A stretch of DNA of 32,480 nt from the NCBI GenBank assembly GCA_003140295.1, contig PLJR01000368.1, forward strand, positions 14,159-46,638. Direction: 5' to 3'. This DNA comes from Acidobacteriota bacterium (GTDB lineage Bacteria; Acidobacteriota; Terriglobia; Acidiferrales; UBA7541). The position numbers were made by a program, and so were the translations under genes. Shown here in pieces: positions 18,109 to 31,686 of this stretch (its first letter is position 1; every line of letters starts with the position of its first letter). The notes below the pieces were generated by a model. That model had not been told where the DNA came from, searched no databases, and was given only the letters and a program-made list of their open reading frames with translations.

Positions 18109-19335
18109 TCACAGAAGGCGGAAAGTCACTTCGATAGGCGTAATGGTCGCCACTGGCGTGCCATTCGGCCCCAACGCCGGCTTGAACCGCCACGTGCGAA
18201 CTGCTTCAATGGCTTTCTCTTCCAGTCCCAGCCCCGGACCCTTAACAATTTCTATGTTCGTGGCGTGGCCGTCGGGCTGAATAACCACTTGCAGCACTAC
18301 AGTGCCTTGATACTTCGCTTTGCGCGCATCTTCGGAATACTGCGGTTCCGGGCAGTACAAGCAACTCGGGTAGCCAACGCCACCCGTTCCCGGACGGAAA
18401 GCGCCGCCTCCCGTTCCGCCGCCAGTACCCGGTCCCAGGCCGCCGCCACTTCCGCTGCCGATTCCGCCGCCTTCTCCCGTGCCGATGCCGCCACCTCCAC
18501 CGGGGCCGCCCGAAGCAGTCATCATCTTGGCCAGCGGGTCGCCGAAATTCGCGTCATTGGGGCTGGGAATCTTCAGCTCCGGCGGCCCCAGCAGGGTCGG
18601 CTCCGCGGGCAGCTTCGGTTCAAGGTTGCGCGGCACCGCCATCGGCGGCGTGATCTGCGTCATGCTCCAACGCGGAAGTTTTCCGCGCGTAGGAGGCGTG
18701 GGCAACCGCTCACCACCGCCGCCGCCTCCGCCGGCCTTGTCTTTGCCCGCGGGAAGTTTCGCCAGATAGGGGGAGATATCGTCGACCAACACCACCGGCT
18801 GTACCTTGAGCTGCGATTGCACGATCTTGCGCGCGAAGGGCACGATGATCAGAAGGGCCACCAGCGCATGCAACCCGATCGAAATTCCCTGCGCCAGGCT
18901 GAACTCTTTTCGCTTGTCCCATAGCGGCCGCACCGGCACCGGCTTGCTCGTAAGCTTCAGCGGGGGCAGCTTCGGCGGTGAAATCAAGTCGCGAAGGTTG
19001 TGCCAGAAAACAAGGTAACCGGGCTCCAGATCCACGACCATTCCGGCAGGTAAAGCGCCATCGGTGGCCGGACCTTTTCGGGGAGCGGGCCGGAAAAATG
19101 CCTTGAAGCTCTCGGAAAAACTAGTGTCGAGACCATCGTTGCGAAATACGTCTTGTTGCGCATTCCGCGGAAGCCGGACGGAGCGCTCCGTTAGAAAGTC
19201 TTTGAGGTTGGTCCAAAAGCTCGGTGGACGCAATTGGCGCCCAGGCGCAAAACGTGGTCCGGACTGCCCGGCAGGGAGTTGAACCGCGCCCGTTTGCGGG
19301 TCGCGAGCCGTCGGATTGATATTGAACGTCTGCAT
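18109..19335 (-). CDS. Energy transducer TonB with long cytoplasmic N-terminus
   Basis: A 408-residue protein linking the proton-motive force to TonB-dependent receptors. One transmembrane helix lies at about 147-167 (LAQGISIGLHALVALLIIVP). The 146 residues before it are cytoplasmic, far longer than in classical TonB, and contain a repeated motif (FWTNLKDFL at 40-48 and FWHNLRDLI at 110-118). The periplasmic part is Pro-rich at about 209-260 and strongly Gly-rich at about 277-321, and then has CLYC (325-328) just before the TonB C-terminal domain (PEPQYSEDARKAKYQGTVVLQVVI, then AIEAVRTWRFKPA). The Gly-rich stretch replaces part of the usual Pro/Lys spacer. ExbB and ExbD are not in the window. 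It is divergent from ileS, and a promoter is visible in the gap. Confidence 0.9.
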   Translation of the reverse strand: MQTFNINPTARDPQTGAVQLPAGQSGPRFAPGRQLRPPSFWTNLKDFLTERSVRLPRNAQQDVFRNDGLDTSFSESFKAFFRPAPRKGPATDGALPAGMVVDLEPGYLVFWHNLRDLISPPKLPPLKLTSKPVPVRPLWDKRKEFSLAQGISIGLHALVALLIIVPFARKIVQSQLKVQPVVLVDDISPYLAKLPAGKDKAGGGGGGGERLPTPPTRGKLPRWSMTQITPPMAVPRNLEPKLPAEPTLLGPPELKIPSPNDANFGDPLAKMMTASGGPGGGGGIGTGEGGGIGSGSGGGLGPGTGGGTGGGAFRPGTGGVGYPSCLYCPEPQYSEDARKAKYQGTVVLQVVIQPDGHATNIEIVKGPGLGLEEKAIEAVRTWRFKPALGPNGTPVATITPIEVTFRLL

Positions 19336-19474: not shown

Positions 19475-19628
19475 ACGCGTTTCGATTCGAGCAGGGACCG
19501 GAGCATCACCTGCAAAGAGCGTAAGCCCGCATCGATGCCGTTTAACGTGGATTTTACTCGATAGAACGCCCATGTTAAACCGCGGGCTGGCTTGAGTATT
19601 GCAGAATCGCACGGGAGTTCGTCCACGA

Positions 19629-22541
19629 ATGCCGAAAATTGTTGACCTGAAAGGTACCCTTAGTCTCCCTCGCACCTCCTTTCCGATGAAGGCGGGCCTG
19701 CCGCAAAATGAGCCGCGCATGCTTGCGCAGTGGGAGAGTGGGGGCCTGTATCAGCGTATTCAAGAAGCGCGCGCCGACGCGCCGAGCTACGTTTTGCATG
19801 ACGGCCCGCCTTATCCGACGGGCACGATTCATCTGGGCACGGCTCTGAACAAAATTCTCAAGGACATGGTCGTGAAATCCAAGTCCATGGCCGGTTTTCG
19901 CGCCCCCTACGTCCCGGGCTGGGATTGTCATGGTCTGCCCATCGAAACGCAAGTCGAGAAAGAGCTGGGCGGCAAAAAGGGCAGCGTCCCGCCGGTGGAG
20001 TTCCGCCGGATGTGCCGCGAATTCGCGCTGCGCTACGTAGATCAGCACCGCCGCGATTTCAAGCGCCTGGGAGTTTTGGGACGGTGGGACGATCCTTACC
20101 TGACCATGAGCAATAGCTACGAGGCCTGCATCGCGGAAACATTTCTTACCTTTCTCCAAAGCGGCTACATCTCGCGCGGCTTGAAGCCCGTCTATTGGTG
20201 CCTCCAAGACCGTACCGCTCTGGCCGAAGCGGAAGTCGAATATGAAGATCACACCAGCCCGTCGATCTGGGTTAAGTTCCCGCTGATCGATGGCCAATCG
20301 TCGAAGCTTGCAAACGCCTCGGCCGATAATGCAAATGATGCCAATTCGAATGTCGCCGCAGTCATCTGGACGACTACCCCATGGACCCTGCCACATAACC
20401 GCGCGCTGGCCTTCCATCCTGATTTCGACTACGTCGTGGCCGAAACGCCCGCAGGAGACTTATTGATTGCGACCGAGCGGCTGGCGGCGCTGCCTGAAGA
20501 ACTCGGAATCGCGGGTGCCCGCCTGCGCGGTCCGTGGAAGGGCCGCGATCTTGCCGGGCTCGAATTCCAGCATCCCTTCCTGGATCTGCGCGTTCCCGCC
20601 GTGCTAGCCGATTACGTGACCCTCGATCAAGGCACCGGAATCGTGCATACCGCGCCGGGCCACGGCCTGGAAGACTTCCAGACCGGGCAGAAATATGGGC
20701 TCGAGACCTATGCCCCGATTGACGACGCCGGGCGTTACGTCGAAGGACTCCCCGAATACAGGGGTAAAACGGTTTTTGAAGCGAATCCCATCGTTATCGC
20801 GCTGCTGCGCGAACGCGGCATGCTTCTCGCCGAAGGGAAACTGACGCACAGCTATCCCCACTGCTGGCGCTGCCATAACCCGGTGATTTTTCGCGCCACC
20901 GAGCAGTGGTTCATCAATTTGGACCGGCCGGGGGGTGGCCCGTCGGGAGGGGACGCCGGCGCCCTTCGACCGCGAGCGCTTGCAGCCATTGCCGAAGTGA
21001 AGTGGACGCCGGAATGGGGCGAGGAGCGCATCTATTCGATGGTCGCGACGCGCCCGGATTGGTGCATCTCGCGCCAGCGTGTGTGGGGCGTGCCCTTGGT
21101 GATTTTTTATTGCGACGAGTGCGGCCAAATGCTCGAAGACTTCGCCGCGCTGCGCCACGTGATCGGCTGGTTCCGGCGCGAAGGCGCCGACGCCTGGTAT
21201 CAGCATTCCGCGGAAGAATTGCTGCCTGCCGGAACGCGCTGCACCTGCGGCAAAGCGCGTTGGCGCAAGGAACGCGACATCCTCGACGTCTGGTTCGACT
21301 CGGGCTCCTCAAATCTTGCCGTGCTTGACCCGCCCGGAGCGAGCAAGGCCGATTTGCCTTGGCCTGCTGATATGTACCTGGAAGGTCCTGATCAGTACCG
21401 GGGCTGGTTCCACAGCTCGCTTCTGATCGGTGTGGCCGTGCGCGGCGCCGCTCCCTACAGGCAGGTTTTGACGCACGGCTGGACGCTCGACGAACACGGC
21501 CGGCCGATGTCGAAATCACTCGGCAACACCGTGCTTCCTTCGGAGATATGCGAAAAATGGGGCGCCGATTTGCTGCGGTTGTGGGTCGCCTCGCAGGATT
21601 ATCAGTCCGATGTGCGCATGTCGGACAACGTCATGACGCAGCTTTCCGAGGCTTACCGCAAAATCCGCAACACGTTTCGCTTCGCGCTCGGTAATCTTTT
21701 TGACTTCGATCCCGCCGCCGATGCCATTCCGGAAACCGATCTCGAGGAAATCGATCGCTGGATGCTGCAGCGAACCCGGCAACTGATTTTTGAAGCTGAG
21801 AACTTTTACCGGGCCTTCGATTTTCACCGCGTCTACCACGCGTTGCACGATTTTTGCGTGGTCGAGCTGAGCGCCTTTTATTTCGACATCCTCAAGGACC
21901 GCTTGTACACGTCCGCGCCAAAAAGCTGGGCGCGGCGTTCGGCGCAAACTGCCGTCTATCGCATCGCCAATGCCCTGGTGCGAATGCTGGCGCCCATTCT
22001 GGCATTCACCTCCGAGGAAATCTGGACGCACTTGCCGCATACCGCCGATGAACCTGATAGCGTGCACATCGCACTTTTCCCGCGCCCTGCAGAGTGCCGG
22101 GCGTTTCCTGACGAGGCGCTCGACGAGCGCTGGGCCCATCTGCGCGAGGTACGCACGGAAGTCCTGAAGGCCCTCGAGCAGGCGCGCGCCCAAAAGCGAA
22201 TCTCGGGCGCTCTGGAGGCGCGCGTGGTGCTTGCGGTCGAGGGCACCCTGGCGGAACTGCTGGAGCTATACGCCGCGTGGCTGCCCGCGCTCTTTATCGT
22301 TTCGCAGGTGGAGCTACGCCTGCCGGGTGCTGCCTGCGATCCGGAACCGGACGCCATCCGCTCGCAAACGCTGCCAGGGCTCAGCGTGGCGGTGCGCCGT
22401 GCTGACGGCACGAAGTGCGAACGCTGCTGGAATTACTCGATACGGGTGGGCGAGAGCGGCGACTACCCCTCGCTTTGCGAGCGCTGCGTCGCGGCCCTTC
22501 GTGAAATCGACCCGCCGGCAAATAGCGGCGCGAATTACTGA
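19629..22541 (+). CDS. ileS: Isoleucyl-tRNA synthetase
   Basis: A 970-residue class I aminoacyl-tRNA synthetase that charges tRNA-Ile. The ATG at 19629 has a GGGAG ribosome site about 11 bases upstream; a TTG ten codons earlier is rejected. The HIGH motif is HLGT at residues 68-71 within PYPTGTIHLG, followed by GWDCHGLPIE. The editing (CP1) domain includes IWTTTPWTLPHNRALAF. RPDWCISRQRVWG is present, and the KMSKS loop near residue 627 reads GRPMSKSLGN, with Pro in place of the first Lys. The C-terminal zinc site has two CERC pairs (about 930-933 and 950-953). There is a small Gly-rich insertion (PGGGPSGGDAG) around residue 435-445. The gene heads an operon: its TGA overlaps the ATG of lspA by one base. 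Confidence 0.97.
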   Translation: MPKIVDLKGTLSLPRTSFPMKAGLPQNEPRMLAQWESGGLYQRIQEARADAPSYVLHDGPPYPTGTIHLGTALNKILKDMVVKSKSMAGFRAPYVPGWDCHGLPIETQVEKELGGKKGSVPPVEFRRMCREFALRYVDQHRRDFKRLGVLGRWDDPYLTMSNSYEACIAETFLTFLQSGYISRGLKPVYWCLQDRTALAEAEVEYEDHTSPSIWVKFPLIDGQSSKLANASADNANDANSNVAAVIWTTTPWTLPHNRALAFHPDFDYVVAETPAGDLLIATERLAALPEELGIAGARLRGPWKGRDLAGLEFQHPFLDLRVPAVLADYVTLDQGTGIVHTAPGHGLEDFQTGQKYGLETYAPIDDAGRYVEGLPEYRGKTVFEANPIVIALLRERGMLLAEGKLTHSYPHCWRCHNPVIFRATEQWFINLDRPGGGPSGGDAGALRPRALAAIAEVKWTPEWGEERIYSMVATRPDWCISRQRVWGVPLVIFYCDECGQMLEDFAALRHVIGWFRREGADAWYQHSAEELLPAGTRCTCGKARWRKERDILDVWFDSGSSNLAVLDPPGASKADLPWPADMYLEGPDQYRGWFHSSLLIGVAVRGAAPYRQVLTHGWTLDEHGRPMSKSLGNTVLPSEICEKWGADLLRLWVASQDYQSDVRMSDNVMTQLSEAYRKIRNTFRFALGNLFDFDPAADAIPETDLEEIDRWMLQRTRQLIFEAENFYRAFDFHRVYHALHDFCVVELSAFYFDILKDRLYTSAPKSWARRSAQTAVYRIANALVRMLAPILAFTSEEIWTHLPHTADEPDSVHIALFPRPAECRAFPDEALDERWAHLREVRTEVLKALEQARAQKRISGALEARVVLAVEGTLAELLELYAAWLPALFIVSQVELRLPGAACDPEPDAIRSQTLPGLSVAVRRADGTKCERCWNYSIRVGESGDYPSLCERCVAALREIDPPANSGANY

Positions 22542-23059
22542 TGGTCGCGGCGCCGACCTCTGATTGGCGCGGACGCTGGCTGTGGCTAACGCTGACGCTG
22601 GCGATAGTAGCGGCCGACCGCGCCGTCAAATACGCGGTTGAACGCTACACCTCCGAGGGATTTCGGCGCGATCTGGTGCCGAACATCATCGTGCTGGTGC
22701 ACAATGTGAATTCCGGCATCGCCTTCGGATTATTTTCTGAATCCGCTTCCCGATGGATTTCGGTCCTGTTGATCGGAAGCTCCGCCGCCGTGATTGTTAT
22801 GCTGTTGTGGCTGTTGATCGCGGGCTGGGCGGGGGACACGTTGTGCCAGGCGGGCCTGGCCTTGATCGCCGGAGGAGCAGCAGGGAATTTGCTCGACCGG
22901 TTGCTGCATGGCGGCGTAACCGATTTTCTCGAGCTGCACGCCCGCTCCTTTATATGGCCCGCGTTCAATCTCGCCGACACGGCCATAACGGTGGGCGCAT
23001 TCCTGGTGATCCTCGATCTTGTGCACGGCGGCCAGCACGCCAGTCGCGAGCGCGTCTAG
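22541..23059 (+). CDS. lspA: Lipoprotein signal peptidase (signal peptidase II)
   Basis: A 172-residue inner-membrane aspartyl protease that removes signal peptides from prolipoproteins. Four hydrophobic helices are apparent at about 11-28, 70-96, 101-116 and 142-162. Conserved blocks are present: DRAVKYAVE early, HNVNSGIAFGLF, GGAAGNLLDRLLHGGVTDFLELH and FNLADTAITVG. By analogy with characterised LspA, the catalytic pair is D128 (in GGVTDF) and D146 (in FNLAD). The ileS-lspA order is the same as in many other bacteria. The start overlaps the ileS stop (TGATG), implying translational coupling. The length is normal. Confidence 0.96.
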   Translation: MVAAPTSDWRGRWLWLTLTLAIVAADRAVKYAVERYTSEGFRRDLVPNIIVLVHNVNSGIAFGLFSESASRWISVLLIGSSAAVIVMLLWLLIAGWAGDTLCQAGLALIAGGAAGNLLDRLLHGGVTDFLELHARSFIWPAFNLADTAITVGAFLVILDLVHGGQHASRERV

Positions 23060-23072
23060 AGCCGGGCGCCGA

Positions 23073-24098
23073 ATGCCAGAACGAATATCCGGTCAAGCCT
23101 TGCATTCCTCCTCAGGAACGCCACAGCGCGTAACCGTTTCCGTGGCCGACGCAGGGCGCCGCCTCGATCTGTACTTAGCGTCACGCCTTCCTGAGCTGAG
23201 CCGCACGCGCATCCAGGAATTGATCGACGAAGGACGCGTGCGCGTCGGCGACCTGCCGCCGAAACGTGCGCAGCGTATTGCCACCGGTGACGTAATCGAG
23301 ATCGAGATGGCCCCGCGCGCCGCGCTGGCGGCGTCACCCGAAGAAATTCCCATCGAGCTGCTGTACGAAGACGACGACCTGGTCGTGGTGAACAAGCCCG
23401 CAGGCATGGTCGTCCATGCCGGCGCGGGGGTATCCAGCGGGACTTTGGTGAACGCGCTCCTGTATCGCCTCGGAAAGTTGTCCGCGGAGGCTGGCATGGT
23501 CCGTCCCGGAATCGTGCATCGGCTGGATCGCGGAACCTCCGGTGTGCTCGTGGTGGCGCGTCATGATGTCGCGCATCGCGCCCTTGCGGAGCAATTTCGC
23601 GCCCGCACCGTGCACAAAACCTATATTGCGTTGTTGACCGGGCGCCTCGCGCGAGATGCTGGCACCATCGGTTTACCCATTGCGCGCGATCCCCGCCGCC
23701 GGACGCGTATGACCGCGCGGCTGCGTTCCGGCCGCGAGGCTCGGACCGATTGGCGTGTGTTGTTTCGCCTGGGGAACTTCACCCTGGTCGCCGCCGAGCC
23801 GCACACTGGACGCACCCACCAGATTCGCGCGCATTTCGCCGCAGCCGGCCATCCGCTCGTCGGTGACACTCTCTACGGCGCACCCGCACGCGCACACGCC
23901 GGTGGCATCTCGTTTGCGGCTCTCGGCCGCGTTTTCTTGCATGCCGCGAAACTGGGGTTTGCGCATCCGCATTCCGGTGTGCCCCTCGAAGTACGCGCTC
24001 CCCTCGCTAAGGAACTGCACGCCTATCTTTACGAACTTGCCGGCGCGCTGGGAATCGACCGGCGTCAGGTTGACGCGGCTCTGCGCGGGTACCTATAA
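23073..24098 (+). CDS. RluA/RluD-family rRNA pseudouridine synthase
   Basis: A 342-residue enzyme that isomerises uridine in RNA, probably 23S rRNA. The start at 23073 is 13 bases after lspA; an earlier in-frame ATG overlaps lspA and would add 18 residues. Residues about 18-78 are an S4 RNA-binding domain (RRLDLYLASRLPELSRTRIQELIDEG). The catalytic domain holds YEDDDLVVVNKPAGMVVH and GIVHRLDRGTSGVLVVAR, with D152 the nucleophile in HRLD, and later EPHTGRTHQIRAHFAAAGHPLVGD. S4 plus catalytic domain is the RluD-type layout, but the exact site modified cannot be read. The lspA-rluD adjacency is common across bacteria. The next gene starts eight bases downstream. Confidence 0.94.
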   Translation: MPERISGQALHSSSGTPQRVTVSVADAGRRLDLYLASRLPELSRTRIQELIDEGRVRVGDLPPKRAQRIATGDVIEIEMAPRAALAASPEEIPIELLYEDDDLVVVNKPAGMVVHAGAGVSSGTLVNALLYRLGKLSAEAGMVRPGIVHRLDRGTSGVLVVARHDVAHRALAEQFRARTVHKTYIALLTGRLARDAGTIGLPIARDPRRRTRMTARLRSGREARTDWRVLFRLGNFTLVAAEPHTGRTHQIRAHFAAAGHPLVGDTLYGAPARAHAGGISFAALGRVFLHAAKLGFAHPHSGVPLEVRAPLAKELHAYLYELAGALGIDRRQVDAALRGYL

Positions 24099-24106
24099 TC
24101 ACGGCA

Positions 24107-25198
24107 ATGCGCTTTCACCTGATTCCCGCCGTTCTGATAGTTTTATGTATTTCGTTGGTGCCTGGAGTTCCGGCCGACCGCGCGCAGTCTGCGCAGCCTG
24201 CTCCGCCGCCCGCAGCCCAAAACGCACCGCAAACTACGCCCGATCAGGGTGGCTCGATCCGCCAGAACGTCAACCTGGTGGACGTGCTGTTTACGGTGTT
24301 CAACCAGCGCAATAAAATTGTTTCCGATTTGGAGAAAGAGAACTTCAAGGTCTTCGACGACAATGTTCCGCAGGAGATACGCTTCTTCAACCGGCAGACC
24401 GATCTTCCCTTGCGCGTGGGACTGCTTCTCGACACCTCGAACAGCATTCGCGCCCGCCTGCAGTTCGAGCAGCAGGCGGCCACCGATTTTCTTTTCAACG
24501 TGATTCGCCGCGATAAGGATCAGGCATTTCTGATGAGCGTGGACGACAGCCCGGAGGTGATCCAGCCGTTCACGAATGACTTGCAGCACCTGCGCGACGT
24601 TGTGATGCGCCAGCGCGCTGGCGGAGGCACCGCGCTCTATGACGCGGTCTATCAGGGCTGCCAGGAACTGCTTCGTTCGCCGGCGCCCGTACCGCCGGCA
24701 GCCACGGTTCCCGATGTGCGCCGCGTCCTCGTGGTCATCAGTGACGGTGACGATAACCTAAGCCGCCATTCGCGCGGCGAAGCCCTCGACATGGCCCAGC
24801 GCGCCGGAATCGTCATTTACACCATCAGCACCAGCATCGACTGGATCGTTACCGACCAGGAAACCAATGCCGCCAAGAGTTTCGACCGCAAATACCAAAA
24901 AACAGGTGGCGACAGCGTTCTCCAGCAATTCTCCGTGGATAGCGGCGGACGCGCTTTCTTTCCTTACCACGTCGACGACTTAGCGCAATCGTTTCAGGAC
25001 ATCGGGGAGGAGTTGCGCAGCCAGTACTCGATCGCATACGTGCCCGCCGGCCGGTTGCCTGACCGCAAATTCCATTCGATTCGCATTGCAGTGGATACTA
25101 AAGGCCTGCAGGTTCACGCCCGCAAAGGCTATTACGCGGCGCCATCGGATACGCCTAACCCGGTTCCCGGGCCGCCACGTTCTGGCCCCACTTCATAA
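24107..25198 (+). CDS. Secreted VWFA-related protein (acidobacterial type), complete MIDAS
   Basis: A 363-residue exported protein. Residues 1-24 form a signal peptide, followed by a Gln/Pro/Ala-rich linker to about 48. Residues about 52-98 form the N-terminal strand module typical of this family (VNLVDVLFTVFNQRNKIVSD, then FKVFDDNVPQEIRFF). The VWA domain follows with an intact metal-ion-dependent adhesion site: DTSNS at 109-113, T175 in GGGTALYDA, and D213 in VISDGDDN. The C-terminus ends with QYSIAYVP and HARKGYYA, shared with the two neighbouring paralogues. The molecular role of the family is not established; ligand binding in the periplasm or at the surface is inferred. It lies eight bases after the pseudouridine synthase, so it is probably read with the ileS operon. 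The ribosome site is weak. Confidence 0.88.
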   Translation: MRFHLIPAVLIVLCISLVPGVPADRAQSAQPAPPPAAQNAPQTTPDQGGSIRQNVNLVDVLFTVFNQRNKIVSDLEKENFKVFDDNVPQEIRFFNRQTDLPLRVGLLLDTSNSIRARLQFEQQAATDFLFNVIRRDKDQAFLMSVDDSPEVIQPFTNDLQHLRDVVMRQRAGGGTALYDAVYQGCQELLRSPAPVPPAATVPDVRRVLVVISDGDDNLSRHSRGEALDMAQRAGIVIYTISTSIDWIVTDQETNAAKSFDRKYQKTGGDSVLQQFSVDSGGRAFFPYHVDDLAQSFQDIGEELRSQYSIAYVPAGRLPDRKFHSIRIAVDTKGLQVHARKGYYAAPSDTPNPVPGPPRSGPTS

Positions 25199-25284
25199 GC
25201 GATCGCTTGACGCTAAGCTAATGAACGGCACGCGCCGACTGTGGCGGAATCGTGCAATTGGCGCGACCTAAGCCGTTTGGGCCA

Positions 25285-26289
25285 CTAGCCTTTCGGGGCG
25301 TAATATCCGCGGCGCGTGAGAACATCGAGTTCTTTGCGGTTTGTCTCCACCTTTATCTTGCGGTAGCTGCCGTCTCGCGCCGGGTTCGTCGACGTATAGC
25401 CTATGGTGTACTGGCTGCGCAGCTCTTCGCTGATCTGATCGAATGCCTGCTCCAGGTTTTTTTCATTCCGGACCACAATCGTCCGGCCCCCAGTTTCGTC
25501 GGTAATCTTTCTGGCCACGCCTTCATTCACATTGAAGTGATATGGGTCCCCGATCAGCAGGATGTGCACCACCGTATCGGTGCGCTGCGCCACTTCAATG
25601 GCGTCTTGCACGCGCAACTGGCTGCCTTCGTCCTGGGCGTCGGTGAGTATGATCAGCGCCTTGCGCCCCGCTTCTCCCGCCAGCTTGTCATGGCACGCGA
25701 GGTAAACTGCGTCGTAAAAAACGGTCCCCGGTCCCTGTTGCGATAGGGGACCCTGGCCGCTGGGCGCATTGATGCGCGTGCGGCGGACGGCGCGGTCCAG
25801 CACGCCGATATCATCGGTAAAATCGGCGAGCAAATCGGTGTCCGTGTCAAAGCTGAAGACTGCCGTCAGATCGCCTTTGCGCATGATGCGAGACAAAAAG
25901 CGCGCCGCGGCCTCCTGTTCCGCTCCCAGCGTGTTTTGTTCGCTGCCACTGGTGTCGACCAGCAGCCCCAAGGTGACCGGCAGCTTGCTGTCCTTCGAGA
26001 AAAAGGAAATCTTCTGCGCGACCCCGTCTTCGCTGACATTGAAATCGCTCTGTTCCAGTGTGGAGATGATCTGCTTCGAATGCTTGTCGCGAACCGTGGC
26101 AAACAGGTTCACCAGGCTTACTTCGACGCGAATGGGCTGCTGCGATTGTTGTAATTGCGGTTGCGCACCCTGGGGATTTTGCGCCGCCTGAAGCGACGCA
26201 CTGGAACGAATTGCGGATGAACCTGCGGCCAGTATTATCGCGATGACGATGAATAGAATACAAACTGGCGTAAACCCGCGGTTTCGCAT
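25285..26289 (-). CDS. Secreted VWFA-related protein (acidobacterial type), complete MIDAS
   Basis: A 334-residue protein. The start at 26289 is chosen because a signal peptide begins there (hydrophobic about 8-22); the open frame continues 23 codons upstream without similarity to a leader. A Gln-rich linker (about 35-51) precedes the strand module VSLVNLFATVRDKHSKQI and FNVSEDGVAQKISFF. The VWA domain has an intact metal site: DTSGS at 112-116, Thr in GPGTVFYDAVY, and Asp in LTDAQDE. The C-terminus carries QYTIGYTSTNP and RRGYYAPKG. It is convergent with the first VWA gene and divergent from the third, so it is regulated separately. A hairpin lies just before the start codon. Confidence 0.88.
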   Translation of the reverse strand: MRNRGFTPVCILFIVIAIILAAGSSAIRSSASLQAAQNPQGAQPQLQQSQQPIRVEVSLVNLFATVRDKHSKQIISTLEQSDFNVSEDGVAQKISFFSKDSKLPVTLGLLVDTSGSEQNTLGAEQEAAARFLSRIMRKGDLTAVFSFDTDTDLLADFTDDIGVLDRAVRRTRINAPSGQGPLSQQGPGTVFYDAVYLACHDKLAGEAGRKALIILTDAQDEGSQLRVQDAIEVAQRTDTVVHILLIGDPYHFNVNEGVARKITDETGGRTIVVRNEKNLEQAFDQISEELRSQYTIGYTSTNPARDGSYRKIKVETNRKELDVLTRRGYYAPKG

Positions 26290-26306
26290 CGTATAATGGG
26301 CGTCGT

Positions 26307-26325
26307 CACCACTTCCGTTGTGGTG
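26307..26325. other. Hairpin in the gap between the two divergent VWA genes
   Basis: CACCAC and GTGGTG pair perfectly across a seven-base loop. On the minus strand it sits 17 bases upstream of the ATG at 26289, so if transcribed it could cover or approach the ribosome site. The wider gap (26290-26558) also has TATACT at 26529-26534, a possible -10 for the plus-strand gene, without a good -35. Confidence 0.3.
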
Positions 26326-26558
26326 CCCTGGGCCAGTCCGGCTATGTTCAATTCGCATGGTTTTTTAGGATGCGCGGTGGCTGTCCAGGGTTGCGGTTCG
26401 TGAGGGGCGCGAAATGCCCGTAACCGCGGTGTCTTGTAAGCGCCATCGCAGTAATCAGCCAAATGGACAGCAAATGGGCGTTCCCTCCAGATATCCCGCC
26501 GCCAGGCTCGAGGGGAAGACTATGCCAATATACTCGCAATCGTGCTTTTAGGCCGCCG

Positions 26559-27635
26559 ATGATTTCCTCACCCAAGAACGTCACCGTGGCGGTGACTCTG
26601 GCTTTCGGTTTGCTCCTGGCCACCGCGCCGATCGCGCCGCAATTCACCCAAGCCGCTCAAGCGCCTCAAGCTCCACAAAATCCTGCTCCGCCTGCGCCGC
26701 AAGCCCCACCCAGCGGGGGTATTCGCACCACTGTCGAACTCGTGGTCGTCCCGGTCACTGTGAAAGATTCCCGGGGCGGTCTGGTTAGCGACCTGCGCCA
26801 GGACGAGTTTCGCGTACTCGAAGATGGCGTCGAGCAGCGCATTTCAATTTTCTCCGTGGAGGCAGTTCCGCTTTCCGCCGTCGTGCTCGTCGATGACGAC
26901 TTAAAAACCAAAACATCCGCGCACGTTAAGGACAGCCTGATGGCGGTTGCCGGCGGGTTCAGCGCCTCCGATGAAGTCGCGCTCGCGCGCTTCGATGCCT
27001 TTTATACTCCGGTGCTGGACTTCACGGCCGATAACGACCAGCTCATCACGCAGCTCAAACACATGGATTTGAACAGCACCATCCCCGGTGTCGGCTCCGA
27101 GCCCATGACCGCTGGCCCTACGATCAATGGCCACGAAGCCCCTGGCGCCCCTTCGGTCGCCGAAAAACCTCTTCGCGCGGGAGAATCCACCAAGCACATG
27201 AACGACGCCATTCACGCCGCAACGGAAGTCTTGCGCACCCGCGGACGCGATCGGCGCAAGGTGATCGTGGTCATTTCCGATGGAATCAACGCCAGGAACA
27301 ATACCTTCAGCTATGACGACACTTTGAAACTACTGCTTTCCGCCGACATCTCCGTCTACGCAGTCGGAGTGGATGCCGCCGTACTCAATCGCGGCACCAC
27401 CGTTATGTCCCATTACGCCCATGCCACCGGAGGCGACGTCTATTACGCGGCGCATCCCGACGACCTATCGCGGCTGTACGCGCAAGTCTCCGAGCAAGCC
27501 CGCCATCAGTACACCATCGGCTACGTACCCACCACCGATCGCACCAAGGATTACCACACCATTGAAGTTCGCATACGCCGTCCCGGCCTCACGCTTCTCG
27601 CCCGCGACGGTTACTACCGCATTCCGCGGCCGTAA
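26559..27635 (+). CDS. Secreted VWFA-related protein (acidobacterial type), degenerate MIDAS
   Basis: A 358-residue exported protein. The start at 26559 begins a signal peptide (hydrophobic about 9-28); an ATG 32 codons upstream is rejected because it would bury that leader. A Pro/Ala/Gln linker (about 30-53) precedes the strand module VELVVVPVTVKDSRGGLVSD and FRVLEDGVEQRISIF. The VWA domain is recognisable (VVISDGINARNN; ISVYAVGVDAA), but the DxSxS metal motif reads DDDLK at about 112-116, with both Ser lost, and the usual Thr-containing loop is STKHMNDAI. Metal-dependent ligand binding is therefore doubtful. The C-terminus keeps QYTIGYVPTTD and ARDGYYRIP. It is convergent with the helicase gene after 71 bases. 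Confidence 0.86.
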   Translation: MISSPKNVTVAVTLAFGLLLATAPIAPQFTQAAQAPQAPQNPAPPAPQAPPSGGIRTTVELVVVPVTVKDSRGGLVSDLRQDEFRVLEDGVEQRISIFSVEAVPLSAVVLVDDDLKTKTSAHVKDSLMAVAGGFSASDEVALARFDAFYTPVLDFTADNDQLITQLKHMDLNSTIPGVGSEPMTAGPTINGHEAPGAPSVAEKPLRAGESTKHMNDAIHAATEVLRTRGRDRRKVIVVISDGINARNNTFSYDDTLKLLLSADISVYAVGVDAAVLNRGTTVMSHYAHATGGDVYYAAHPDDLSRLYAQVSEQARHQYTIGYVPTTDRTKDYHTIEVRIRRPGLTLLARDGYYRIPRP

Positions 27636-27706
27636 AGCACGGCGCGAACTAGCGCAGGCGCAACCATTCACCCCTTCTGCTTTGTCGCGTTATGGTTCCG
27701 AGGCGC

Positions 27707-30700
27707 TCAGCGGCCGGTCGTTACCTTGGCATTCCCGGCCCGTTCCGCGCGCTGCGAATCGCCCTCCGGCTCGAGCGATTGGCCGCACCACGATTCCTGT
27801 GACGGGCACAAAAACCGGTATTCGCAGGTTTTGCAGATAAACCCCGGCTTAATAGGAAATTCGCGGGCGCGGATATCGGCTGCCACTTCCTGGATGGCGC
27901 CACGCACCTGGTGGAGCGCATTTTCATCGCGAGTTGCCGCGACCACCTCGTTCGTTTGTAAGTTGTAGTAGACCAGCCGCACGGGCTCGAGTTCGAGATC
28001 TTCCCGCGCCGCCATCGCGTAAACGCTCAACTGCAGATCCTTCTGCGCTTGCGCTGCGGTCCTCGGCTTGCCGGTTTTGTAATCGACGATTTCCACTTCG
28101 CCGGCAGCGACCTGGTTGACCTGGTCCATGCGCCCCAGCACTTGCACGCCATTATCCAGTTCCAGCGTGAAGCGCCTCTCCAGCGCCAGCACGTTCGGTG
28201 GAGCCGCTACGCAACTGGCGTGAAACGCCCGCAACTGCGCAACACCGTCATCCAGGTAACACTGTTCCTGGTAATCGTCCTCAAATCCCGCCGACGTCCA
28301 CTCACGCCGGAAGATGGTCTCCAGCTCTTCGCATGGCAGCGTCAGCCCCTTGCGCATCGCCGCAATGAATTGCCGGATGGTTACGTGCATGACATTGCCA
28401 AACGTTGTAGCCGCCCACGGCCCTCCGCGAATCCCCCAAACGTTGTTGAACAGGTATTTCTGCGGGCATTTCCAATACGATTCGATTGCCGACGCGCTCA
28501 ATTGCAGCGGCTCGAAAACCGGAGGCCGGTACTGCGTCGCCCACGCTCCAATGCGCGAATGGACCCGCGAATGGACCCGCGAATGGACCCGCGCATCGGC
28601 TTGTGAATGTCCGCCAGCTTCCTCATATTTGTCCGTAAAAAGCTCATCCCCGAATAAAAGTTGCTCGCCGGCGCGCCCGCCGCTCTTGACAGGCGTCGCC
28701 GGAACCACCGGAGCCAATTGCTTCACATTTTCCCGGGCGATTCTTGGCGCGCTCAAAATGTCGTCGAGAAAAACCGAAGGCTTCGAGCGCTTGTGCACGA
28801 CGGTCGAAAGCGTCAGTCGTTCGCGCGCGCGCGTCACCGCTACATAGAAAAGGCGGCGCTCCTCCTGGATATGAAAATCGCCCTTGGGCACTTCTTCCTT
28901 CATCAACGCTTCCGGAAACTCCAGCACGCGGCTGCGCGGCACCATCGGGAATCCCCGAGCGGTCAGCCGCAGCACGAACACATGATCGAATTCCAGCCCC
29001 TTGGCGGCATGCACGGTCATCAACTGGACCGCATCGCCCCCCTCCTGCTCGAGATTGATCTGCCCGCCGGCCTGTACGAAGTAATCGAAATACTCCACGA
29101 ATTCCGCCAGCCGCGAGGTCTCACTTTTCAGTTGCCACTCGAGCACGAAATGACGCAGCCGGTCGACATAGCGCCGTTCGGTCGGCGACACCACGGAATG
29201 AAGTTCCAGCCATTCGGCGAGCGCGCCAAATAATTCCACGGCGGTCAACCGCCAGGCCCGCTGTCGCAGATCGTGGATGTCCAGGACCAGTGCATCCGTG
29301 CGGCGTTCGATTCCGTTGAACGGTAGCTCGCCCTGCCGCGCTTGCAATGCGTCCCACAGCGCCGGCTGGTTCTTCGAGGTTTGTTCGCAAAGCCTTACTA
29401 AGTCCGCCGCTTCCAGGCCCCACGCCGGTGCTGCCAGCACGCGCGCACACGAAACATTATCCGAGGGTTTCGCCACCAGCCGCAGGTATGCCAGGACGTC
29501 CCGAACCAGCGGATGCCCCAGAATGGACAGATTTCGAATGACGAACGGGATCCCTCGTTCTCCGAGAGCCTCCACCAGGGCGTCGCGGTGATTGTGAATG
29601 CGATACAGCGCCGCGAAAGTGCGCCACGGCTGGCCGGCCGCGTGGAGGCGTGCAATTTCGGCCGCAATCCAGCGAGCTTCTTCGCTCGCCGACGCGAACT
29701 CCACGATGCGAACCTTCTCGCCGTCAGGCTTATGCGCCGCCAGCTCTTTTGCTGGCAATAGCGGCGAACGCTCCATCAGGCTGGCCACTTGTGCGGCCAC
29801 GCGCAAGATTCGTCCCGTAGAGCGGTAATTATCGATCAGCGGCCGCACAAAACGCGCCGCTGCCTGGGTGTTGGATCTGGGCACGCCGGCAAAGCGCTGC
29901 AGAAATATCGTAAAGCTGCCGAACGACGCGCCGCGAAACCGGTAAATCGCCTGGGCGTTGTCCCCTACGGCAACGATGTTGCGTTGCTCCCCACCCAGGC
30001 GCCAAAGCAGCTCGATTTGTGCGACGTTGGTGTCCTGGAACTCGTCCACCAGGATGTACCGAAAACGCCGGCGCACACTCGCCGCAAAAGCCGGGTCAGC
30101 ATCGAGCGCGCGCACTGCGTCCAGCAATTGCATACCAAATGTAAGCAGATGGCGTTCGCGCAACAGCCGGTCGCTCGCCCGGTAAGCCCGCGCAATCTCC
30201 TGCTGCCTGCCAATCTCTTCTTTGCGCAGCCGGCGCTCGTCCTCGGGAAGCGCTTCGCGCTCGCTCGCATAGTGCTCCGCAAGCGACGCCACGTAATGTT
30301 CGTAATCGTCCGGAGTGACTAACTCGTCCTGGCAGCGCGAGAAAAACTGCACGAAGTCGCCCAAAAACTGTCCCGGCTCGGCCAGCCGGCGGTACCGCTC
30401 GAGCGCCAGAACCGATAGATTGCGGCGGAGCAGTACCCAGTGGTCCTCCTTTTCCAGAGTCTTCAGTTGCGGATCACGTTCGAGCAGCAGGCTGTTGCAG
30501 AACCCGTGAAACGTTCCCAGGCATACGGCACGTCCTCGTTCGCCGGCCGTTTTGGCGACCCGGTGCTTCATTTCCGCCGCTGCTTTGTCGGTGAACGTCA
30601 GGCCGAGGATCGCGGTGCCAGGAAGTTCCGGATCGCAGGCCAGCAGGTGCCGGATGCGCTCGGTGATGACACGTGTTTTGCCCGTGCCGGCGCCCGCCAC

Positions 30701-30805
30701 CACCAGTAGCGGCCCCTCCCCGTGTTCCACTGCCGCTTTTTGCTGTGCATTGAGTTGCTCGCCGAAACCCGTGGACACCGGCGCCAGTTCAAAAAGATTT
30801 GCCAC
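27707..30805 (-). CDS. UvrD/Rep-type helicase fused to PD-(D/E)XK nuclease with Fe-S cysteines
   Basis: A 1032-residue protein combining an SF1A DNA helicase with a RecB/AddB-like nuclease, probably acting in DNA end processing or repair. Helicase motifs are: QQKAAVEHGEGPLLVVAGAG with TGKT (Walker A, about 38-44), GLTFTDKAAAEMKHR (Ia), ILVDEFQDTN (II, about 254), VGDNAQAIYRFRGA (III), MTVHAAKGLEFDHVFVL (V) and FYVAVTRARERL (VI, about 652). From about 765 the nuclease domain has SASAIESYWKCPQKYLF, VMHVTIRQF, VEIVDYKTGK (about 901) and CKTCEYRFLC (about 989-998). The four cysteines, one before and three after the core, match the AddB/Dna2 iron-sulfur staple. A 12-bp triplication encodes VHSR repeats in the linker. 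No AddA/AddB partner lies nearby, so it may act alone. Confidence 0.93.
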   Translation of the reverse strand: MANLFELAPVSTGFGEQLNAQQKAAVEHGEGPLLVVAGAGTGKTRVITERIRHLLACDPELPGTAILGLTFTDKAAAEMKHRVAKTAGERGRAVCLGTFHGFCNSLLLERDPQLKTLEKEDHWVLLRRNLSVLALERYRRLAEPGQFLGDFVQFFSRCQDELVTPDDYEHYVASLAEHYASEREALPEDERRLRKEEIGRQQEIARAYRASDRLLRERHLLTFGMQLLDAVRALDADPAFAASVRRRFRYILVDEFQDTNVAQIELLWRLGGEQRNIVAVGDNAQAIYRFRGASFGSFTIFLQRFAGVPRSNTQAAARFVRPLIDNYRSTGRILRVAAQVASLMERSPLLPAKELAAHKPDGEKVRIVEFASASEEARWIAAEIARLHAAGQPWRTFAALYRIHNHRDALVEALGERGIPFVIRNLSILGHPLVRDVLAYLRLVAKPSDNVSCARVLAAPAWGLEAADLVRLCEQTSKNQPALWDALQARQGELPFNGIERRTDALVLDIHDLRQRAWRLTAVELFGALAEWLELHSVVSPTERRYVDRLRHFVLEWQLKSETSRLAEFVEYFDYFVQAGGQINLEQEGGDAVQLMTVHAAKGLEFDHVFVLRLTARGFPMVPRSRVLEFPEALMKEEVPKGDFHIQEERRLFYVAVTRARERLTLSTVVHKRSKPSVFLDDILSAPRIARENVKQLAPVVPATPVKSGGRAGEQLLFGDELFTDKYEEAGGHSQADARVHSRVHSRVHSRIGAWATQYRPPVFEPLQLSASAIESYWKCPQKYLFNNVWGIRGGPWAATTFGNVMHVTIRQFIAAMRKGLTLPCEELETIFRREWTSAGFEDDYQEQCYLDDGVAQLRAFHASCVAAPPNVLALERRFTLELDNGVQVLGRMDQVNQVAAGEVEIVDYKTGKPRTAAQAQKDLQLSVYAMAAREDLELEPVRLVYYNLQTNEVVAATRDENALHQVRGAIQEVAADIRAREFPIKPGFICKTCEYRFLCPSQESWCGQSLEPEGDSQRAERAGNAKVTTGR
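28555..28590. repeat. 12-bp direct repeat, three identical copies, inside the helicase gene
   Basis: Three identical, contiguous copies of GCGAATGGACCC are followed by a partial copy. On the coding strand this gives a repeated Val-His-Ser-Arg in the linker between the helicase and nuclease parts. The length is a multiple of three, so the frame is kept. Replication slippage is the likely origin. Confidence 0.9.
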
Positions 30806-30873
30806 AGCGCCATCCTAGCCGATTTGCGCTGGCGGCGCACGCCACCACCGGGTAGGCCGCGACTGGGCCTAAG

Positions 30874-31686
30874 CTAGAAAAGTTTCACCCGGCCTTTACG
30901 CAGCTTGGTTTTGAACGTCCAGAACGAATCGGTTCCACGTATCGCGATGCGCTTTAATTCATAGGGATCCTTGGGCGGCAGCCTGTTGATGCGCGAGCCG
31001 ATCCGCAGCGCAAACTCAATTCCGTGTTTCCGGAAGCAATTGCGCATCGCCTGGTTGACGCTTTGCTCTCTGGGCATGCGGCCATAAGGGTACGCGAAGA
31101 CTCGCGTAAACGGGCAACCCTGCTCTTCGAGAGCGCGCACACATGCGGTCACATCCGCTTCGATTTGTGCCGCCGAATAATGCTCATAGTTTTCGTGCCG
31201 GCAGGAGTGCAGCCCGAATTCAATCTGCCCACCAGCGATCTCCTGTATGTCCTGGTAGGACATCAGCGATTCGTTCGCGCCGTCCCATTGGTTTACGCCC
31301 CCGATAAAGCCCACGGGCAGCAAAATGGTGGCCTTCACTTGATGTTTAAGCAGCAGCGGGTGCACCAGTTGAACCGTCCTCAAGTACGCGTCGTCGAATG
31401 TCACCAGGATCGGTTTCGCCGGCAAATCATGACCGTGGTTCAAGGCGTCGCTTAGTTCTGAAAACGAGATCGCTGTGTAGTTCTGATCTTTGATAAAAGC
31501 GAGCTGGCGATCCAGGCGGTCCGCGGATATCGTCAATGCGTCGTTTTCTTGTGGAGAAACCTTATGATAAAGCAAAATAGGCAGGCCTTGAGGCGCCGGC
31601 ACGAACAAGCTATAGCGGTAGACCAGCCACACGAAAAGCAACAGCGCAGCGCCGGTTATCCACCATATTCCCGCCGGCGATATCAA
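30874..31686 (-). CDS. Membrane-anchored polysaccharide deacetylase (CE4/NodB family)
   Basis: A 270-residue protein with an N-terminal membrane anchor (about 8-30, ITGAALLLFVWLVYRYSLF) and a carbohydrate-esterase 4 domain, expected to remove acetyl groups from N-acetylated sugars in the periplasm. Visible motifs are LPILLYHKV (about 36-44), VTFDDAYLRT (motif 1, metal and base Asp pair), GLHSCRHENY (motif 2, HSxxH type) and FAYPYGR (motif 3). The first available start is TTG at 31686, with a G-rich tract only three bases upstream. The open frame continues back without a stop to the TGA of the preceding gene (31725-31723), which is in the same frame 13 codons earlier. So the real start, or even independent translation, is uncertain. 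Confidence 0.85.
   Translation of the reverse strand: MISPAGIWWITGAALLLFVWLVYRYSLFVPAPQGLPILLYHKVSPQENDALTISADRLDRQLAFIKDQNYTAISFSELSDALNHGHDLPAKPILVTFDDAYLRTVQLVHPLLLKHQVKATILLPVGFIGGVNQWDGANESLMSYQDIQEIAGGQIEFGLHSCRHENYEHYSAAQIEADVTACVRALEEQGCPFTRVFAYPYGRMPREQSVNQAMRNCFRKHGIEFALRIGSRINRLPPKDPYELKRIAIRGTDSFWTFKTKLRKGRVKLF

Follow-up and report, generated by a model that had tools for sequence, protein, structure and literature searches.

The VWA domain is related to the ligand-binding domain of human von Willebrand factor, and VWA proteins normally hold their partner through a metal-binding site, the MIDAS, a metal-ion site with the motif DxSxS…T…D. VWA proteins may also occur in pairs, as do the Bat/MoxR-associated proteins BatA and BatB. 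In Acidobacteriota, a major soil phylum, TIGR03436 proteins are numerous and, to our knowledge, without an established role. A literature search returned no paper naming TIGR03436 and none combining 'VWFA-related' with Acidobacteria, and the accessible text of a paper on Solibacter paralogues gives no function for these proteins. MIDAS adhesins and scaffolds are also found in Gram-negative bacteria, and in two cases mutation of the MIDAS was shown to abolish function, namely that of Bd0875, an adhesin at the predator-prey junction of Bdellovibrio (PMC11003981), and that of the membrane-anchored McaA of Magnetospirillum (PMC9512821). Here, we describe three TIGR03436 genes, V1, V2 and V3, from a 32,480-nucleotide stretch of an Acidobacteriota genome (contig PLJR01000368.1, positions 14,159 to 46,638; hereafter the window), where they lie within 3.5 kb in plus, minus and plus orientation, flanked by lspA-rluD and a UvrD-PDDEXK gene. 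V2, with an intact MIDAS, stands beside V3, in which the site is dead, a clear and testable asymmetry; together with the conservation of the trio, it suggests that the set works together and not as three separate receptors.

MIDAS residues and architecture of the trio

V1 (24107-25198, plus strand, 363 amino acids) has a complete MIDAS made up of D109-T-S-N-S113, T175 and D213, as has V2 (25285-26289, minus strand; longest open reading frame (ORF) to 26358, 357 amino acids), with D135-T-S-G-S139, T212 and D240. V3 (26559-27635, plus strand; longest ORF from 26463, 390 amino acids) retains a remnant, D144-D-D-L-K148, with Lys244 at the Thr position and D273 kept; all three ORFs are complete. 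The motif of a MIDAS binder is hence found in V1 and V2 and is missing from V3. The MIDAS letters are invariant in 49/49 V1 and 76/76 V2 sequences, whereas the site is complete in none of 61 V3 orthologs and in none of the 20 V3 rows examined residue by residue. The first Asp and the late acidic residue (Asp or Glu) are each retained in 61/61 V3 orthologs, most of the serines are lost (Ser is kept at 7/61 and 10/61), and the Thr position is occupied by Lys, His or Arg in 52 of the 61. Pairwise dN/dS (the ratio of non-synonymous to synonymous substitution rates), calculated for two close pairs, falls in the range 0.10-0.19 in V1 and V2 and is about 0.14 in V3; V3 is therefore a maintained gene under purifying selection and not a decaying one. 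From these residues, V3 is predicted to be unable to bind by the canonical metal route, and V1 and V2 probably use a metal ion to bind partners; the three proteins are thus not equivalent, V3 being no ordinary VWA protein.

A sequence-only reading of the window had proposed that V1, V2 and V3 are paralogues of one family sharing one order of parts, and both proposals hold. All three begin with a signal-peptide-like N-terminus and a Pro/Gln-rich linker, after which an N-terminal strand module leads into the VWA core, and they close with QY(S/T)I(A/G)Y…GYY; the TIGR03436 domain order (N-terminal strand module, VWA, C-terminal QYxxGY…GYY) is found in all three. In profile searches, the whole proteins score 232, 235 and 170 bits, respectively, against a curated cut-off of 81.25 bits for TIGR03436 (acidobact_VWFA, an NCBIfam subfamily_domain), and cover positions 3-323, 2-324 and 3-322 of the 324-position model. 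Pairwise aligned identity is 34% for V1-V2, 30% for V1-V3 and 26% for V2-V3. AlphaFold2 models of V1 (mean predicted local distance difference test (pLDDT) score 73, with much of the core at about 80-94) and V3 (mean pLDDT 68), for which the alignments consisted of the window proteins and loci L144 and L145 and nine sequences underlie the models, have an ordered core with predicted strands flanking the VWA on both sides, low-confidence N-terminal linkers and no C-terminal helix. Translation of V2 and V3 probably starts at 26289 (MRNRGFTPV…) and 26559 (MISSPKNV…), and not at the longest-ORF ends 26358 and 26463, because signal peptides begin at these positions. With the revised starts, the divergent V2-V3 intergenic region, to which no strand is assigned, spans 26290-26558, and the gap is therefore about 270 bp and not 104 bp.

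Conservation, ancestry and upstream regions of the cluster

TIGR03436 is as abundant as had been supposed. The source genome (4.1 Mb in 418 contigs, 73% complete, with the window on the 70-kb contig C358) contains 23 matching stretches from about 18 genes, some of them fragments, and the near-complete relative G008 has 15 matches. About 10-25 paralogues are found per genome in this group, and further small clusters lie on C110 and C210 in G000 and on C2 in G008. Since the family is so common, clustering alone proves little, and conservation across genomes is the decisive test. Synteny was therefore followed in 59 relatives, where up to 20 kb surrounding the best V2 match was searched with the window proteins. 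The block lspA-rluD-V1(+)-V2(−)-V3(+)-uvrD(−) is intact in most members of the taxonomic family of the source, occurs in other families of the order (L090, L092, L094; G037, G039, G041) and is found whole in a class-level relative (L099; G049). V1-V2-V3-uvrD is also present on contigs of Candidatus (Ca.) Acidiferrum typicum (Acidobacteriota, Terriglobia, Ca. Acidiferrales) and of the Acidobacteria metagenome-assembled genome palsa_360, the named relatives recovered by protein search, where the scan used a single protein query and returned two loci. At L091, L102 and L106, V1 and V2 are convergent and no V3 was found alongside. The arrangement, for which conserved synteny had been put forward as a check, is thus kept through family and order and partly beyond, and chance clustering is untenable.

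In the 100 genomes for which coordinates of both V2 and V3 are listed, the two genes are adjacent and divergent in 98 and lie on different contigs in the other two, so that the layout holds in all 98 genomes in which they share a contig, even where the other neighbours have changed; the median gap between the matched stretches is 288 bp. In the f11 family the surroundings are altered, and only V2 and V3 are common to all 11 pair-bearing loci. Two families deviate, f9 with rluD-V1-V3 all in one direction and f5 with a V2-type gene followed by V3 in the same direction, and in both V3 still adjoins a V1- or V2-type gene. V3 almost always has such a neighbour, locus L185 being an exception, and of 247 genomes drawn from across the phylum, the 28 with a V3 match at E ≤ 1e-55 all belong to this class. 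One alternative is that the three proteins are independent secreted binders without a joint function, kept together only through syntenic housekeeping DNA (ileS-lspA-rluD … uvrD). It would fit the conservation of the whole block, housekeeping genes included, in the source's family, the habit of V1 of keeping to rluD whatever V2 and V3 do, and the differing upstream elements of V1 and V2 described below. However, the f11 loci hold V2 and V3 together, always divergent, in different surroundings, and passive synteny would not single out this pair; we regard this alternative as unlikely.

Additional V3-like genes were also seen. In some g6 genomes a second one lies about 11-13 kb from the V2-V3 pair, and examples are G035:C9:90934-91962, G181:C294:27547-28602 and G141:C47:50951-52009; that of G035 adjoins rluD-V1, itself also separated from V2 and V3.

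A 97-row tree that also includes paralogues from three genomes places V1, V2 and V3 in one class-spanning group each, and two dispersed paralogues fall inside that of V2. A 40-row tree supports V1 with 100/97, V3 with 100/98 and V1+V2 (plus the two dispersed paralogues) with 96/92, V2 alone being weaker (71/20); V3 sits on a long stem and is not placed beside V1+V2. A single V1+V2+V3 clade excluding other paralogues is not the best tree, yet the approximately unbiased (AU) test does not reject it (p-AU 0.19). By these trees, V1, V2 and V3 are three old ortholog groups and not recent tandem copies, with V1 and V2 as close kin; a tree of unrelated genes was not obtained, nor is the arrangement unique to this genome. 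One MIDAS-intact group of dispersed paralogues (L003, G000:C201:3235-4269, and L119 of G049) nests within V2 and may represent an old V2 copy at another place in the genome. The sequence-only reading had suggested joint or alternative ligand recognition, and its version, in which three receptors act in parallel on related or alternative ligands, draws on the architecture and secretion signals that the proteins have in common and on the fact that V1 and V2 are both MIDAS-intact close kin. With a complete MIDAS in 0/61 V3 orthologs and a rigid pairing of V2 with V3, this version is improbable: recognition through three parallel MIDAS receptors is at odds with the loss of the V3 site in every ortholog examined, whereas joint recognition, at least by V2 with V3, fits better.

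The upstream regions differ among the three genes; the percentages below are not independent counts, as related sequences share motifs by descent. V1 is preceded by a predicted sigma-70-type promoter, TTGACG-N18-TATAAT (24070-24099, plus strand, 11/12 consensus bases), with its −10 element taking in the TAA stop codon of rluD (24096-24098) and ending 7 nt short of the V1 ATG; a leaderless mRNA is therefore predicted. The pattern matches exactly at 24070, against an expectation of 0.15 matches for the entire window when up to one mismatch is allowed, and sites with at least 9/12 matches are found for 77% of V1 genes in the family and 94% of those in other families (4% and 2%, respectively, in Markov shuffles), although the −35 element lies inside the rluD coding sequence and protein constraint could explain part of this conservation. 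Upstream of V2, sigma-70-type sites are found in 8% against 5% in shuffles, i.e. none like that of V1. Instead, a conserved two-box element of the form CATC(C), about 15 nt, GCATCnnA lies at 26366-26393 on the minus strand, where a CATC-like box (here CAACC) is followed after about 15 nt by GCATCCTA. GCATCnnA is present upstream of V2 in 95% of family members compared with 6% in shuffles, as a rule accompanied by another CATC box some 20 bp further upstream. This element is possibly an alternative-sigma promoter or the site of a two-box regulator. Single GCATCSWA sites occur in the window at chance frequency, so only their placement upstream of V2 across genomes carries weight. GCATCnnA was also considered as the element of a large regulon and dropped, because the strict paired CATC-GCATC pattern is rare, with 2-4 matches per genome, and no broad regulon was seen. 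Outside the source's family, CGTCYAA-type boxes are enriched upstream of V2 (25% against 1% in shuffles).

GCATCnnA is mostly missing from V3, upstream of which no promoter was recognised. A putative symmetric −10 element shared by V2 and V3 (ATTATAC immediately before the V2 ATG, reading GTATAAT towards V3) was considered, but no V3 −35 element was found by eye in the window. The proposal that the set is not a simple operon is supported by the promoter-like site of V1 and the divergence of V2 and V3. A second alternative is that V3 opposes V2, as a soluble competitor or sequestering decoy for V2 (or V1), with the divergent layout setting their ratio. V3 does have the C-terminal strand module and the linker but no MIDAS, divergent pairs permit reciprocal control, and the conserved V2 element is mostly not at V3; as no promoter was recognised for V3, however, a decoy appears quite unlikely.

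A putative V2-V3 unit and its genomic setting

We tentatively propose, with a probability of about 0.45, that the trio is an ancient selected cluster with V2 and V3 as its core and V1 as a companion tied to rluD, in which the MIDAS-dead V3 acts with the MIDAS-competent V2 as a periplasmic or cell-surface unit. Judging by the signal-peptide-like N-termini, all three proteins would be exported by Sec to the periplasm or beyond, each with a flexible Pro/Gln linker as its tether; V1 and V2 would serve as metal-dependent binders. V3 would be the MIDAS-dead partner of V2 (a few families would have a V1-type or another V2-type protein in its place), and in a putative physical complex with V2 it may complete or control ligand binding, as a pseudo-enzyme supports its active sister. 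V3 thus most likely supports or restrains V2. V1 is a looser member and frequent companion of this core, because it stays with rluD and does not follow V2 and V3 where the block breaks up. A bolder form of the proposal is that V3 carries a pseudo-MIDAS, in which the conserved basic residue (Lys, else His) replaces the metal ion between the two kept acidic residues and so holds V3 locked in a single state. On this view, the two proteins would be the subunits of a heterodimer kept through much of Terriglobia, in which one VWA depends on metal and the other does not; one of them would sense metal or ligand, while the other would be fixed. We consider this form to have little chance of being correct.

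Several points weigh against a V2-V3 unit. Co-regulation can be reason enough for divergent neighbours to stay together, with no complex between their products, and no V1/V2-type gene accompanies the V3 of L185 (G177) within its 19 kb of sequence. The genus g12 keeps V2 without V3 (L067, L077, L084, L089; no V3 match in the genome search), and V1/V2-type matches (E ≤ 1e-90) are found in 292 of 299 class genomes compared with 162 of 299 for V3 (E ≤ 1e-60); V2 therefore does not need V3. Nor is V3 alone in its loss of the full MIDAS motif, which 12 of 31 other paralogues do not have either, so that this loss by itself is no proof of a partner role. Among so many paralogues per genome, no member had stood out as the first to study; the trio, three orthologous members in fixed positions, provides a rational entry point to the TIGR03436 family.

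The cluster is preceded by a tonB-like gene (18109-19335, minus strand), ileS (19599-22541, plus), lspA (22541-23059, plus) and rluD (23019-24098, plus), the last coding for an RluA/RluD-family pseudouridine synthase and included as context only, as the conserved upstream neighbour of V1. In the relatives L057 (6175-6966) and L065 (6387-7283), an lgt-like gene, called by eye from prolipoprotein diacylglyceryl transferase motifs, lies between lspA and rluD; it is not there in the window, and a gap of matching size is present in many other relatives. Downstream, and outside the proposed mechanism, a 1032-amino-acid UvrD helicase fused to a PDDEXK nuclease (27707-30805, minus) is convergent to V3, a position kept in the source's family and order, and is followed by a polysaccharide deacetylase gene (30874-31686, minus). 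The fusion protein scores under the NCBIfam equivalog cut-offs for PcrA, Rep, UvrD, AddA and RecB, and in PADLOC it matches generic UvrD-like helicase models (GajB, RTasHel); the same search gave no defence-model match for V1-V3. No Rfam match was found in window positions 22000-31000, and no relatives were found among the viral contigs searched.

Comparison with known VWA proteins

Foldseek searches with the V1 and V3 models returned VWA and I domains, including integrin I domains and the BatB VWA (3ibs), and a longer alignment to inter-alpha-inhibitor heavy chain 1 (ITIH1, PDB 6fpy), which extends beyond the VWA alone over 315-335 columns. The query-normalised TM-scores of these matches are mostly 0.33-0.45 at 9-20% identity, and the likeness is therefore secure for the VWA fold only. 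Membership of a Bat/MoxR system is not indicated: no MoxR ATPase was found in the conserved surroundings of the trio or among the annotated neighbours in the window, V2 matches the BatA model NF047508 weakly (E 2e-4, 20.5 bits against a cut-off of 380), and the V1 and V3 models show no C-terminal helix. V1 and V2 resemble Bd0875 and McaA at the level of the MIDAS motif, a comparison confined to the VWA domain, but neither of the two is described with a MIDAS-dead neighbour in the available text of the reports. TIGR03436, in turn, is one domain-family name that does not separate the V1, V2 and V3 ortholog groups, and its model is blind to the conserved divergent V2-V3 pair and to the MIDAS-less group. 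The family is known, the cluster is real and deeply conserved, and the MIDAS asymmetry between V2 and V3 is new.

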